Source of the DNA: Limnobacter alexandrii
GTDB taxonomy: Bacteria > Pseudomonadota > Gammaproteobacteria > Burkholderiales > Burkholderiaceae_B
Reading direction: 5' to 3'
DNA: 64,000 nt
Assembly (NCBI RefSeq): GCF_005871185.1
Contig: NZ_SWKN01000006.1
Location: forward strand, 248,001-312,000
Shown here: positions 16,151-23,054 of the stretch, piece after piece
How positions within the stretch are numbered: the stretch's first letter is position 1
Layout of the letters: each line of letters begins with the position of its first letter
Notes under the pieces: generated by a model
Database searches by the model: none
Told to the model about the DNA's origin: nothing
What the model saw: the letters and a program-made list of their open reading frames with translations, nothing else
Made by a program: the position numbers and the translations under genes

Positions 16151-16807
16151 TCACTGAGTAATCGATGCAGTGGTCAATCCCCACCCAATGGCCAACTTGG
16201 TCAGCTCAATGTCATTACTCACCTGTAATTTCTTTTTGATTTGGTAATGAATGTTGTGAATGGTTTTTGAACTCAAGAACAGCAATTCTCCGATTTGTTC
16301 AGCCGACTGCCCTGCCACCAACAGGCACAACACTTCAAACTCGCGGCTGCTAAGCTCGTCCAGCCCGCCCCGGTTGTCGCGCAAACGCGATAGCGCCATT
16401 AAACGCGACAGGTCTGCACTCATGAACGTGCGGCCCGCCAACACTTCACCAATGGCCCGCAACAGTACTTCTGGGCGGCTGCTTTTTGTGACATAACCTT
16501 TTGCGCCAGCGTCCATGCAGGCGCGCGCCAATTCAATTGAATTGTGCATGGTGAACATCAGGAATTTCACCTCAGGCCAACGCCCCAGCACCCGCTGAAT
16601 CAAACTCAAGCCAACAGGTTCGGGCATGCTGATGTCGCAGATCACCAATGCGGGCAGCGCCTTCTGGCATGCGGCATAGGCTTCTTGCGCACTTTCCGCT
16701 TCTCGAACCTGACTATAACCGCCCTGCGTTTCCAGCAAGTGCCGGTAACCAGCCCGCACCACGGCATGGTCGTCTACCAATAAAATAGGAAAGTCGGCGT
16801 TGTTCAT
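16151..16807 (-). CDS. NarL/LuxR-family response regulator
   Basis: 218 residues. The receiver domain (about 1-125) has the acidic pair in VDDH, the phosphoacceptor Asp in VICDISMP, a Thr in MFTMHN and the Lys in GYVTKSS, so it looks functional. The C-terminal LuxR helix-turn-helix is LSSREFEVLCLLVAGQSAEQI then SKTIHNIHYQIKKKL. It overlaps the kinase gene upstream by four bases (ATGA) and lies just before pqqA. It is the obvious candidate to control pqqA and PQQ-dependent oxidation, but this is inferred from gene order. Confidence 0.9.
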   Translation of the reverse strand: MNNADFPILLVDDHAVVRAGYRHLLETQGGYSQVREAESAQEAYAACQKALPALVICDISMPEPVGLSLIQRVLGRWPEVKFLMFTMHNSIELARACMDAGAKGYVTKSSRPEVLLRAIGEVLAGRTFMSADLSRLMALSRLRDNRGGLDELSSREFEVLCLLVAGQSAEQIGELLFLSSKTIHNIHYQIKKKLQVSNDIELTKLAIGWGLTTASITQ

Positions 16808-18147
16808 GCAGCACCTTTTTGTTGAAAGCTGGCCGACACCACAAACTGGTGATTCTCAACTTGCGCCTTGAACACACCGCCATGCACCCGCACTCGTTCA
16901 GCCAGCAAATTCAGACCCATTCCACCCGAGGGCAGCTGCGTTTCAGCAGGCTGGGGCAGTTGGTTATCAACACGTAATTCGAGCATTCCCTGCTGCAGCA
17001 CCAAACCAACATTCACCGGCGAACCTGGCGATGCATGCCGCCGCACATTGGCCAGGCACTCCTCTACCGTGCGGTAAACGCACAGTGCGCGGTCTTTGTC
17101 CAAACCATTCAGCGCGGCCTCTTCAAGATTCAGCTTCACGATCCAGCCGCTGCCCGAATTAATTTCCCAGCGGGTGCACAGGTCTTGAATGGCCATGCCC
17201 AAATCCGCCCCCTCAAGAACCGGTGGACACTTGTTGACCAGCACCGCCCGCATGCGCTCGAAAGCCCCTTCAATCTGTAAATCGATTTCTTCCAGCTTGT
17301 CCTGCACTTCAGTGTCGCCGCCCTTTAGCTGCGCGCGCAACTGGGCACAGTTCACTGCAATCAAACTAAGAGACTGCCCCAAGTCTGCGTGCACCAAGTG
17401 GGCCAACTCCCGTCGCTCTTCTTCTTGCACATTCAGTAACTTCATCAACAGGTTTCGCCGGGTTTGGGTAAGGCGCCACAATCGCTCGTTCAAACGGTTC
17501 ACACCCTGTGCAATCCGACCGAACTCGCGCGGTTGCACATCGGGCAATTGCGCCGGTGGCGGGCTGTCCTCTGAAATGGCGATCGAGTCGATTTTCTCGA
17601 CCAAAGTGGCGGCCGGCTGCAAGGCACGACCAATCACCACATAAGTCAGGGCGGCAAGACTGGTCACAATCAGGGTGCTCAGCAACAGCAGGTCGCGCAG
17701 TGTGTTCCAGAATTTGGCCAACACCAGTTGCGGGTCGGCAGTAATGAACAACTCGCCGAACGGTTGGCCCCACAAACCCACTGCCCTGGGCTCGGATTCA
17801 ATTTGAACGCCCAGCAAGCGCATTAACTGCGCCTCTACAGGATGGCGCACCAGGTTGTCACAGCCCTCCTGCCGCACCTGCCCATTCCAGCCTTCATAGC
17901 GAATGCAGTAAGGAGCCAGCAACAAACCATACTGGCTTCCCACCAACACCGGCGAGCCCTCGATTTCCGGGTTGATTTGCCGCTTGTACATGGAATATTC
18001 CACCATCTCGTGCAGGCGGGTGGCGTCGCTGACCAAGGCCTGGTCTACTTCACTGGCCGTGCGCAGCACCACATAGGCAGAAATGAGCACCCAGCACAAC
18101 AGGCCCAGGGTGATCATTCGCACCAGCAAATAGCGTTTCAGGTTCAT
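16804..18147 (-). CDS. Sensor histidine kinase, HisKA_3 type, with altered H box
   Basis: 447 residues. Two membrane helices (about 10-30 and 155-178) bracket a periplasmic sensor of about 125 residues, with a HAMP-like region near 180-235. The dimerisation/phosphoacceptor segment reads EERRELAHLVHADLGQSL: His253 is present, but the residue after it, almost always Asp or Glu in this family, is Ala254. The ATPase N box ECLANVRRHAS is present, while the DNGxG box is reduced to DNQLP, followed by a normal GGMGLNLLAERV. The kinase may therefore be weak or act mainly as a phosphatase or sensor scaffold. It overlaps the response regulator gene by four bases and follows another regulator gene by nine. 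Confidence 0.88.
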   Translation of the reverse strand: MNLKRYLLVRMITLGLLCWVLISAYVVLRTASEVDQALVSDATRLHEMVEYSMYKRQINPEIEGSPVLVGSQYGLLLAPYCIRYEGWNGQVRQEGCDNLVRHPVEAQLMRLLGVQIESEPRAVGLWGQPFGELFITADPQLVLAKFWNTLRDLLLLSTLIVTSLAALTYVVIGRALQPAATLVEKIDSIAISEDSPPPAQLPDVQPREFGRIAQGVNRLNERLWRLTQTRRNLLMKLLNVQEEERRELAHLVHADLGQSLSLIAVNCAQLRAQLKGGDTEVQDKLEEIDLQIEGAFERMRAVLVNKCPPVLEGADLGMAIQDLCTRWEINSGSGWIVKLNLEEAALNGLDKDRALCVYRTVEECLANVRRHASPGSPVNVGLVLQQGMLELRVDNQLPQPAETQLPSGGMGLNLLAERVRVHGGVFKAQVENHQFVVSASFQQKGAA

Positions 18148-18156
18148 TCAAACAGT

Positions 18157-18831
18157 TCAATCGGCGTTGGGCTGCAAGTGCGCCAGCGCAGCCTCCCCAT
18201 GCAGGCGGGCCGCCAGCTTTCGTGCAACCGAATAATTGCTCACTGCCTCGCCACGGTTTTGAACACCCAGTCGCCCAAAGGCCTCTTTGATGTGGGCATT
18301 CACCGTGTCAGGGCTCATGCCCAGTATCCTTGCAATTTCCTTGCCTGTCCTACCCAGGGACACCTGTTCCATCACTTGGGCCTGCTTGATGGTTAAGGGC
18401 TTGGGGCTACCGGGCATTTGAATCAGGCTTTGAAATTCGTTTCGCTGGGCAATCGAATTCACGTTGACTGAATCACGCTTCAAAAAAGACTGAACCTGAA
18501 CCATGAGTTCTTTGTAATGCTGACTTTTGGAGAGCAGCAAGGCACCCGAGCTGGTCACCTGTCGCTCAATTTTTGGATCGCCCAAGGCAGTAAAGAAGAT
18601 ACGAAATGAATTGGAAAACCGCTGTGACACCAGGTCAACCACCTCGGCCGGCTTGCTGTTGGGCAGCACCAGGTCAGACACGACCAAATCAACATCGGCT
18701 GGCTCAATTTGCTGCAGTTGATCGACTGAATCAACTACACGGGTATTCAACCCTGGAATAACGGCAGCAATAATTTCTTCAACGACCATGGCCGAAGTCG
18801 GATGGTCTTCCAGTATCAATAAGTTCTTCAA
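18157..18831 (-). CDS. LuxR-family response regulator, first gene of the pqqA-linked signalling set
   Basis: 224 residues. The receiver has LLILEDHP, the phosphoacceptor Asp in VVSDLVLPNS, a Thr in FFTALGD and the Lys in LLLSKSQ. A linker leads to the LuxR domain: LTIKQAQVMEQVSLGRTGKEIARILGMS, then DTVNAHIKEAFGRLGVQNRGEA. It is divergent in sequence from the second response regulator, so the set is regulator-kinase-regulator rather than a recent duplication. An AT-rich 200-base stretch separates it from the divergent exported-repeat gene and probably holds both promoters. Confidence 0.88.
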   Translation of the reverse strand: MKNLLILEDHPTSAMVVEEIIAAVIPGLNTRVVDSVDQLQQIEPADVDLVVSDLVLPNSKPAEVVDLVSQRFSNSFRIFFTALGDPKIERQVTSSGALLLSKSQHYKELMVQVQSFLKRDSVNVNSIAQRNEFQSLIQMPGSPKPLTIKQAQVMEQVSLGRTGKEIARILGMSPDTVNAHIKEAFGRLGVQNRGEAVSNYSVARKLAARLHGEAALAHLQPNAD

Positions 18832-19032: not shown

Positions 19033-19329
19033 ATGTCACATTCCGACGACGAGAAACTCAAAGCACGGCGGGCCGCGCTGGCCAAGGTGGGCCTGGCTGT
19101 GGGCGCCCTGTATGCTGCGCCTGCCATGGTTGGTTTGGCCACCGCACAGGCGGGCAGTCGCTCAAAACCCAGCCGCAGATCACGCCCTTCCCGCCCCGAC
19201 TATCACCGTACCCGCTACGGTCGGGGTTATCGTTCCTCCCGGCCATCACGCCCTAGCCGGTATTCGCGGTACTCCCGCTACTCGCGTTATTCAAGGATCA
19301 GCCGACCCTGGTTCTACATTCGCTTTTAA
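19033..19329 (+). CDS. Small exported Ser/Arg/Tyr-repeat protein, putative kinase substrate
   Basis: 98 residues from the ATG at 19033, which has a strong AGGGGAAG ribosome site; an ATG at 18931 would add 34 residues. The N-terminus has a twin-arginine-like pair (KARRAALAK, Arg12-Arg13), a moderately hydrophobic stretch and an AxA-type cleavage site (TAQA, about residue 40). The mature part is almost only Ser, Arg, Tyr and Pro, ending with five SRY/SRI units (about 76-90) and then RPWFYIRF. The repeat units use different synonymous codons, so the protein pattern is under selection. The next gene encodes an HprK-like kinase with a PqqD domain, which makes this protein the likely substrate or precursor. 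No known family is recognised. Confidence 0.6.
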   Translation: MSHSDDEKLKARRAALAKVGLAVGALYAAPAMVGLATAQAGSRSKPSRRSRPSRPDYHRTRYGRGYRSSRPSRPSRYSRYSRYSRYSRISRPWFYIRF

Positions 19330-19335
19330 GTACGC

Positions 19336-20583
19336 GTGGACACCGTAGTACCGGCCGCTTGCCTGGCACTGAGGTTTGCGGGTGTAGGCAAACACCTGTG
19401 CATTCCCGACGACCCCGAGTTGCTGGGTGGTATTGACCAAGTCATTCCGAGTTGGCAATACACCCGGCAGCCTGGGCAGCAACCCTGCAATCTTGGCGAT
19501 GAATGCGTGGTCAGGGTTCGCCACAACCTGCAACAAGCAGGAACCTTCGACATCGAATCCGCGTACCTGGATGAACCATTGCGAGGCCTACCCATGGCCA
19601 GTGCCGTGTGCGCCGTGGTCGCCGATTTGCTGGAGGCTTTTTCAGAACAGGCCACCACCCCAATTGTTTTTCACGCCGGTGCATTTGCAATTGACAATCG
19701 CCTGATCGCGATTACAGGCCCAGGCCGTGCAGGCAAAAGCACCCTGATCAGCCGCCTGTGTGCCGAGCCCAAGCTGCAAGTGTTCTGCGACGACGTGCTG
19801 CCTGTAGGCCCGCAAGGTGAAGGAATTGCACTGGGCGTATCGCCCCGCCTGCGCTTGCCGTTGCCCGCTGACTCAAGTGAAGCTTTCAGGCAAATGGTTG
19901 CCAGGCACCTTGGCCCCCACGATTCCCGTTACGGGTATGTGTGCCCAGCCACGTTGGCCCCGCACGGCACACACCTGCCGTTGAGCGCACTGGTGGTGTT
20001 GGACCGACAGGCCGACACCCCCGCCCGTTTGCACCACATTCAGCAAGACGACGGCCTGTTTTATGCCCTGCAACAAAATATGGGGCACTTTGAATCGCCG
20101 GGCGAAGCCCTGGCGGCAACTCAAGCACTGTTGGGCGGAATCACTTGCGTTCGACTGGTGTACAGCAACCTGGAGGAAGCCGTACAACTGCTGCAACAGG
20201 CGTTCTCCAGCCCGACGGGAATAGCCCCCGATGTTCAAGTGCATGACGCAGGCCACTGGAACCCGCTCAAGGCCGCCGCCCCAAAACCGGTGAATTCAAA
20301 GCAAATATTTTCAAGAACAGCGGGCGCCACCCTGCGCAGGGTTGGCGAAACCGCCTTTTTGTGGAGAAACGGCGAACATTGTGTTTGGCGGCTAAATGCT
20401 GTGGCCCAGGCCGTGTGGGGAATACTTGAAATTCCCGGCACCGCAATTGAGGTTACCGAGGTACTGGCTGAAATATTTGTTCAGGTTCCCCGAAAGAAAC
20501 TTGAGGCCGACGTGCGCAGCATGATGGGCATGATGCGAGAGGAAGGATTTCTGGTGGAATCACCGCAGGAACTTTTCGGGTGA
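19336..20583 (+). CDS. HPr kinase-like protein fused to a C-terminal PqqD domain
   Basis: 415 residues (GTG start, six bases after the preceding gene, so coupled). The middle part is HprK-like: FHAGAFAI (about 112-119), the P-loop GPGRAGKS (128-135), an Asp pair in VFCDDVLPVG (152-153) and GVSPRLRLPLP. HPr kinases phosphorylate serine. The last 85 residues (GETAFLWRNGEHCVWRLNAV, then AQAVWGILEIPG and a helical end) match PqqD, the peptide-recognition module of ribosomally made, modified peptides. HprK-related kinases next to PqqD-type proteins are known as an uncharacterised genome-mined group; here both are one chain. The neighbouring Ser-rich exported protein is the natural target. The activity is inferred. 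Confidence 0.78.
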   Translation: MDTVVPAACLALRFAGVGKHLCIPDDPELLGGIDQVIPSWQYTRQPGQQPCNLGDECVVRVRHNLQQAGTFDIESAYLDEPLRGLPMASAVCAVVADLLEAFSEQATTPIVFHAGAFAIDNRLIAITGPGRAGKSTLISRLCAEPKLQVFCDDVLPVGPQGEGIALGVSPRLRLPLPADSSEAFRQMVARHLGPHDSRYGYVCPATLAPHGTHLPLSALVVLDRQADTPARLHHIQQDDGLFYALQQNMGHFESPGEALAATQALLGGITCVRLVYSNLEEAVQLLQQAFSSPTGIAPDVQVHDAGHWNPLKAAAPKPVNSKQIFSRTAGATLRRVGETAFLWRNGEHCVWRLNAVAQAVWGILEIPGTAIEVTEVLAEIFVQVPRKKLEADVRSMMGMMREEGFLVESPQELFG

Positions 20584-20610
20584 TTAGCACTCTGTGACAA
20601 GGAGTGCTAA
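20584..20610. promoter_or_regulatory. rpoH: CIRCE element (HrcA operator) in front of rpoH
   Basis: The sequence TTAGCACTC-N9-GAGTGCTAA is an exact match to the CIRCE consensus bound by the heat-shock repressor HrcA. It starts right after the stop of the kinase/PqqD gene and lies 45 bases before the rpoH start, so HrcA should repress the sigma-32 gene. Confidence 0.93.
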
Positions 20611-22337: not shown

Positions 22338-23054
22338 ATGAACGCAGCAAGCACCCAAGTTGAACAGCAAGCAAAAATTAGCCAGGTCAGCGGCAATGTG
22401 CAGTTGATACGGGATGGCTTTTTTCTGCCTGCCCAGGCTGGCCTGGTTTTGTTGCCGGGCGACCGCGTGGTGAGCGACCCGGCAGGCAAAGCCGTGATCG
22501 AGTTCACCGGTGTGAAAGATGCGTTGATTATTGAAAACGGTGCAGCAGCCACCTTCAATTTAGAAGTGGTTGAGATGGACCAGGCACCACAGTGGATCGC
22601 CACCGACCTGTACGGCCAAGGCGTGTATTTCGAAAGCCAGCAAGCTGACACCACAGCAGACAGCGACGACACACCCGACCTTTTCGGCCTGTTTGGCACG
22701 GGTGCCGAGGGCGGTGACTCAACAGGCTACCCAGTACTGGAAAGCCTGGTGTTTTTGGGTGCAACCGCGGCAATTTACAGCGACAACGAAGACAACAACT
22801 CAAGCACCACAGACACCACCAGCACCAATGAATCGGGCAATGGCAACAACCCTGGCACCAGCAACCCACCGCCCACCACAAACCCGGAGCCAGGCCCCGA
22901 GCCTGAGCCTGCAGCTGGTCCACTCGATGCCGTATTAAGCCCGGTCACCGATGCGCTGGATGGCTTGCTTTCTACCTTGGGAGCCCCCTCCCCACTCGGA
23001 AGCCTGGCCGCCCCAACCCAAGCCAACCTTGCAAATACGCCACCTGCTGAATAA
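22338..23054 (+). CDS. FecR-like domain protein with acidic Pro/Gly-rich tail
   Basis: 238 residues. Residues 10-110 resemble the FecR domain: ISQVSGNVQLIRDG, LLPGDRVVSDPAGKAVIEF and ALIIENGAAATF, followed by PQWIATDLYGQGVYFESQ. There is no FecR membrane helix or anti-sigma N-terminus, and no sigma factor gene nearby. The middle is Asp/Ser/Thr-rich (SDNEDNNSSTTDTTSTNES) and the end is Pro/Glu/Ala-rich. The layout recalls the N-terminal part of large surface adhesins, but there is no repeat region after it. It may be a shortened adhesin-type protein. It lies five bases after the GST gene and lacks an evident ribosome site. Confidence 0.6.
   Translation: MNAASTQVEQQAKISQVSGNVQLIRDGFFLPAQAGLVLLPGDRVVSDPAGKAVIEFTGVKDALIIENGAAATFNLEVVEMDQAPQWIATDLYGQGVYFESQQADTTADSDDTPDLFGLFGTGAEGGDSTGYPVLESLVFLGATAAIYSDNEDNNSSTTDTTSTNESGNGNNPGTSNPPPTTNPEPGPEPEPAAGPLDAVLSPVTDALDGLLSTLGAPSPLGSLAAPTQANLANTPPAE

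Follow-up and report, generated by a model that had tools for sequence, protein, structure and literature searches.

A conserved two-gene cassette of Proteobacteria pairs an HprK-like kinase fused to a PqqD-type domain with a serine-repeat protein bearing a twin-arginine-type leader

We analysed a stretch of 64,000 nucleotides of Limnobacter alexandrii (hereafter the window), part of a 3.49-Mb assembly, in which a gene for a small serine-repeat protein with a twin-arginine-type leader is followed by a gene for an HprK-like kinase that carries, in the same chain, a RiPP recognition element (RRE) of the PqqD type. The results indicated that the two genes form a conserved cassette: of 51 loci from Alpha-, Beta- and Gammaproteobacteria and from plasmids, 48 have a small leader-bearing gene directly before the kinase gene and in its orientation, although many of the loci belong to Halomonadaceae and are not independent. 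The domains, motifs and compositions described below make it likely that this is a leader-guided phosphorylation cassette, in which the RRE would dock on the leader and the kinase would phosphorylate the repeat serines before export.

Both genes are on the plus strand. The small protein, the proposed precursor and substrate, is encoded at 19033..19329 (98 aa), and the fused kinase at 19336..20583 (415 aa, GTG start); the first-pass annotation had described two such reading frames six bases apart, and both are found at these positions. The small protein carries a twin-arginine pair at residues 12-13 (19066..19071) and a YAAPAM motif at residues 27-32 (19111..19128), which has the form YxxPx[hydrophobic] as defined in the available text of PMC13381572, lies in the hydrophobic region of the signal and is proposed to be the element bound by the RRE. 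The mature core would comprise residues 41-98 (19153..19326), following AQA, a cleavage site read from the sequence; its serines are often three residues apart and use 4 AGY and 10 TCN codons. The NCBIfam name 'iron oxidase' was rejected for the small protein: the match covers residues 4-47 only, scored 22 bits (cut-off 100) and was read as similarity of the signal.

In the 415-residue protein, an HprK/PEPCK-type P-loop kinase fold was predicted (AlphaFold pLDDT 92). The HprK-like catalytic region spans residues 107-299 (19654..20232) and includes the invariant H113, the P-loop GPGRAGKS at residues 128-135 (19717..19740) and the Asp pair D152-D153 (19789..19794). The His, the P-loop Lys and Ser and the Asp pair, at positions that align with HPr kinase, are invariant in all 27 aligned kinases, and fold, P-loop and Asp pair together place the protein among the HprK/PEPCK P-loop kinases. 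The PqqD/RRE domain occupies about residues 325-409 (20308..20562) and matches PF05402 with 35.4 bits (cut-off 23.4). Thus the P-loop, the Asp pair and the C-terminal PqqD domain that had been read from the letters are all present. When the kinase profile was compared with the PDB, the RREs TbiB1, LppB, TfuB1 and PbaB1 came out best, followed by HPr kinase 3tqf, and it is to lasso RREs that the C-terminal domain is most closely related among solved structures. The best matches in the fold comparison were to PEPCK, a family of small-molecule enzymes, which counts against reading the protein as a peptide kinase. Pfam Hpr_kinase_C gave no match in the window kinase up to E 1, placing it outside HPr kinase/phosphorylase proper, and HprK-related kinase A (TIGR04352) was rejected as its identity (29.2 bits against a curated cut-off of 200). 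Searches of PHROGs and PADLOC up to E 0.01 revealed no phage or defence family for either window protein.

The 51 loci comprise the window, a relative from the same genus (L002), 41 loci that a pattern-based scan found in a collection of 84,980 species, six loci (L059-L064) from a sample of 398 genomes of the phylum, and two of six plasmid records. Left out were three duplicates (L003, L004 and L005, of L007, L008 and L034), three entries from the genome of the window itself (L001, L006 and L058), L065 (143 bits, overlapped by L075) and L066-L074 (76 bits or less), in which no leader partner was seen. Within the 48 pairs the two genes overlap in 25 cases, are separated by 3-12 bases in 18 and by 54-143 bases in 5; the Shinella locus (L076) was counted as an overlap from its longest-ORF starts, and its annotation sets the genes 64 bases apart. 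The three exceptions are a kinase of Yoonia (L009), which keeps its RRE and for which the leader was not found anywhere in the genome (a MAG), and two kinases of Neomegalonema, which are also without the PqqD domain. Because the Neomegalonema kinases are nested inside the cassette group in the kinase tree, RRE and partner were probably lost together. The first-pass annotation had made its reading depend on homologous kinases having a serine-rich neighbour, and such a neighbour was found in 48 of the 51 loci.

In the phylum sample, 17 of 398 genomes showed kinase matches; those of the window's own genome and of six others scored at least 323 bits and all had the partner. At L065, where kinase and PqqD lie in separate frames, no partner was present within 1.5 kb, and adding this locus to the survey brings the count to 48 of 52; the nine weaker matches (76 bits or less) were likewise without a partner within 1.5 kb. 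We searched eight whole genomes with the leader profile, and strong matches (E 8.5e-14 or better) appeared in six, solely at the cassette; there was no strong match in the genomes of the Yoonia locus and of one Neomegalonema locus (L013), and the next-best match across all eight genomes was 1.7e-4. Among eleven further genomes, the three that carry the kinase all have the leader (E 1.7e-13 or better), and the eight related genomes free of the kinase gave nothing better than 1.1e-5, kinase absence having been tested with the kinase itself in seven and by a TIGR04352 search only in G630. The next-best leader-profile matches that were inspected resemble unrelated membrane or periplasmic proteins. 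The kinase itself is patchily distributed, being present in 5 of 200 genomes of the family and 1 of 399 of the order, with the window's own genome counted in both. In the kinase tree, Limnobacter is placed with Paracoccaceae, and Paenalcaligenes, a betaproteobacterium, with Gammaproteobacteria; this placement suggests that the kinase has been transferred.

An alignment of 15 leaders gave the consensus RRxxLxRLGLxAxAAYVAPTLxxxxxAxA, which contains YxxPx[L/M/F]. The arginine pair is kept in all 15, and the small protein is probably exported via Tat; a full-text literature search on Tat export of unstructured proteins gave no paper. We counted the motif in 53 leader proteins, namely the 48 small proteins, a second small leader protein in locus L044 and four subtilase-like proteins. 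Y..P is present in 52 and F..P in one, counts that are partly selected for because the seeds of the leader profile themselves hold the motif, and shuffled leaders give a wider form of the motif in 2.4%. No locus of the survey has a partner lacking Y/F..P. Methionine at the last motif position, found in the window protein and in 7 of the 53 motifs (YMAPAM in Shinella, for example), is outside the published LPP and lasso set, since the available text of PMC13381572 gives the leader element bound by lasso and LPP RREs as [Y/W]xxPx[L/V/I/A/F/Y]. According to the same text, N33 of LppB fixes the kink at the leader Pro and D70 forms a hydrogen bond with the leader Tyr (PMC13381572). In the window kinase these residues align with N354 (20395..20397) and D392 (20509..20511), and across the survey the equivalent of N33 is Asn in 47 of 49 RREs and that of D70 is Asp in 48 of 49. 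The lone RRE without this Asp, from Litoreibacter (L045), where the PqqD is a separate gene, faces the lone Phe leader, which is suggestive, at one locus, of a coupling between leader Tyr and RRE Asp. From the motif and the residues that would read it, we infer that the RRE binds the YxxPx element of the leader. The first-pass annotation had also made its reading depend on a predicted contact between PqqD domain and leader, and the agreement of the leader element with the ligand known for the nearest solved RREs favours such a contact. Since this element sits in the hydrophobic part of the twin-arginine-type signal, an RRE that holds the leader should delay export.

The cores are highly divergent. 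Those of Limnobacter are built of SRP/SRY units, those of Halomonas and its kin of YSRPS, and those of Pseudotabrizicola and Pseudorhodobacter of SRPS or SAPSRNS; the Litoreibacter core repeats SNKSGK and that of L043 SEASEM, L037 consists of Gly and Ser with little else, and L064 of Gly and Ser with Arg. Serine is the constant of these otherwise divergent sequences, making up 10.9-39.3% of each of the 48 cores. For R, Y, P, K, E, N and T alike there is at least one core that lacks the residue; Thr is missing from 27 and Tyr from 10, and Gly is the sole other residue present in all 48, with a minimum of 1.3%. A Ser-Ser spacing of 3 accounts for 47% in the cores against 13% after shuffling. Both Ser codon families are used in 46 of 48 cores (L043 and L045 use one family each), and most repeats are therefore not mere DNA repeats. 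Charge was rejected as the conserved property, as cores are basic, acidic or neutral. We also observed that 31 of the 48 small proteins end in Trp or Phe and that there are lineage-specific C-terminal tails, for example IEIRLSRVLPRW, RLVISVTPSRW, LILEDVILGPPRR and YIRF.

This composition fits Ser-specific phosphorylation, and in the available text of PMC13381572 LppK acts on Ser and not on its Thr or Tyr variants. Serine is, however, generally common in low-complexity exported proteins, which weakens the argument for it as the target. The first-pass annotation had proposed phosphorylation of Ser, or Tyr, on the exported neighbour. Its central idea, a kinase that holds this neighbour through a peptide-binding domain and modifies it, probably on Ser, gains strength from the pairing in 48 of 51 loci and from the constancy of Ser, whereas Tyr was rejected because one core in about five (the 10 of 48 given above) has none. 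Dehydration of phosphoserine, as in lanthipeptides, was likewise rejected, no lyase domain being recognised in the kinase chain.

The order of steps that we infer is as follows. While the small protein is still cytoplasmic, the C-terminal RRE of the kinase would grip the YxxPx motif within the twin-arginine signal, and the fused HprK-type domain would phosphorylate serines of the repeat core. After its release the small protein would leave the cytoplasm, probably through Tat, and be cleaved behind AxA, and the end product may be a secreted or periplasmic disordered Ser-repeat phosphoprotein. Phosphorylation before export would be a little-known bacterial route to secreted phosphoproteins.

How many serines would be modified, and whether their modification is the main task of the enzyme, bears on three other explanations. 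One particular Ser might be phosphorylated, perhaps repeatedly, as by LppK, with the repeats serving adhesion, charge or another purpose. The available accounts of the relatives agree with such a reading, as LppK attaches several phosphates to S3 and to no other residue (PMC13381572) and lasso kinases act on a C-terminal Ser (PMC8498205), and the repeats need not all be targets, given that LppK modifies a single, leader-proximal Ser. In the cassette, however, the serines keep no constant distance from the leader, the first being core residue 24 in L026 and 22 in L038, and a single small protein of the 48 (L064) has a C-terminal Ser, so that we regard this explanation as rather unlikely. Phosphorylation might instead keep a polycationic, toxic peptide harmless for as long as it stays in the cytoplasm, a bacteriocin-like self-protection. 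Arg-rich cores are indeed frequent (median Arg 24%), but the cores of L030 and L043 are Arg-free and Glu-rich and that of L037 is Gly/Ser, and a non-systematic annotation of the flanks showed neither an immunity gene nor a gene for a dedicated transporter; this appears very improbable.

A different possibility is that the fusion is mainly a signal-peptide chaperone or export checkpoint, whose RRE covers the Tat signal and whose binding or hydrolysis of ATP, not core phosphorylation, controls release. It would account for the wide variation of core composition and for the location of the RRE motif in the hydrophobic part of the signal, where holding it is expected to mask export. We nevertheless consider it improbable, because the His, P-loop and Asp pair aligned with HPr kinase are invariant and because a pure chaperone would leave the constancy of Ser in the cores unexplained. 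Phosphorylation of the repeat serines under the guidance of the leader is thus the reading that we prefer.

Several systems resemble the cassette in part. A TIGR04352 kinase together with a PqqD protein makes up what we take to be the HPr-rel-A system, and TIGR04352 exceeds its cut-off in 41 of 200 genomes of the phylum. In several of ten such loci an RR-leader protein, a PqqD protein and an HprK-like kinase stand in a row, as in the cassette, although the PqqD is separate there and fused to the kinase here. Moreover, these loci (up to 3.8 kb) carry an NTP_transf_5-type gene in 8 of 10 cases and an Asn-synthase-like gene in 6 of 10, whereas each was found in 0 of the 51 cassette loci, in flanks that range in length from less than 1 kb to 5 kb. 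The HPr-rel-A leaders seen have no YxxP, their partners are not Ser-repeat proteins (8-14% Ser, n=6), and their kinases form a clade separate from the cassette kinases; the cassette therefore lies outside HPr-rel-A. Loci L066-L069 also have a PqqD and an HprK-like domain in one chain, but in the reverse order, with PqqD N-terminal and an NTP_transf_5-type gene following; fusion as such is thus not unique to the cassette. The tailoring kinases of lasso peptides (paeninodin type) are, in the available text of PMC8498205, likewise HprK homologues acting on Ser of a RiPP precursor; unlike the cassette, they modify the C-terminal Ser of a lasso core and have a separate RRE.

The closest published parallel is the LPP system of Bacillota (LppA/LppK/LppB), described in 2026, in which an HprK-like kinase and an RRE act on Ser of linear peptides (PMC13381572). 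Both systems have an HprK-like kinase, a PqqD-type RRE and a linear precursor with a YxxPx leader, and Ser modification, described for LPP, would be common to them. As far as the available text of that paper goes, LPP has a discrete RRE and a single modified Ser, whereas in the cassette RRE and kinase form one chain, the core is a Ser repeat and the leader is a twin-arginine-type signal. Among the marks of LPP loci (discrete RRE, SpI-like peptidase, NTP transferase and MsbA-like transporter), the cassette departs in the RRE, which is fused, and in the NTP transferase, which was not found within the flanks covered. The earlier suggestion that a kinase/peptide-binding fusion with a repeat-rich exported partner had not been described holds for the cassette itself, no description of which was found in the full-text literature searched, where few subscription journals are covered; it does not extend to its principle, in view of the 2026 account of a kinase and RRE acting on Ser (PMC13381572, available text) and of TIGR04352 kinases with a separate PqqD.

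Other genes accompany the cassette. In four of the 51 loci, two from Pseudotabrizicola (L010:3218-4540 and L011:3172-4488), one from Shinella (L076:2046-3383) and one from Paracoccus marcusii (L077:1969-3234), a gene for a subtilase-like protein precedes the small gene, and these proteins share the cassette leader and a Ser-rich linker; the subtilase domain was assigned by Pfam in L010 and L076, by annotation in L077 and by likeness in L011. Five alphaproteobacterial loci carry, on the other strand, a gene for a sigma factor like those annotated in L076 and L077, and in four of them an anti-sigma-like protein is encoded as well. The Litoreibacter cassette is preceded by L045:3621-4220, which encodes a protein that has an RR signal and a SelR domain (methionine sulfoxide reductase B).

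In the window, genes for a response regulator, a histidine kinase and a second LuxR-type response regulator lie on the minus strand at 16151-18831, divergent from the small gene, and the nearest regulator is likewise divergent in L002 and L003. A gene for an rpoH-type sigma-32 factor follows the window kinase. Between the kinase stop and this gene, positions 20584-20610 hold a perfect inverted repeat, TTAGCACTC-N9-GAGTGCTAA, which we take to be CIRCE-like (1 match against a chance mean of 0.01). Farther downstream, the reading frame at 22338-23054 shows a weak match to a LapA-type retention module (15.4 bits; cut-off 50).

With its two genes, the cassette allows the leader-guided phosphorylation of Ser in exported proteins to be put to the test in Gram-negative bacteria, and it connects RiPP recognition elements with a signal of the twin-arginine type. 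It also provides a functional hypothesis for proteins annotated merely by family or not at all, the kinases of the Shinella and Paracoccus plasmid records being named 'PqqD family protein' and their small proteins 'hypothetical protein', and its cores, unrelated apart from their constant Ser, amount to a natural experiment on what the kinase accepts. More tentatively, and as something we hold possible but somewhat doubtful, disordered exported repeat proteins bearing multiple phosphoserines may be the products of a widespread proteobacterial pathway, in which one enzyme would recognise an RRE motif concealed within a Tat signal and so couple signal recognition, phosphorylation and export proofreading; in some Alphaproteobacteria the Ser-linked subtilases would be additional clients of this enzyme. 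If this is true, bacteria would have a counterpart of secreted polyphosphoserine proteins.
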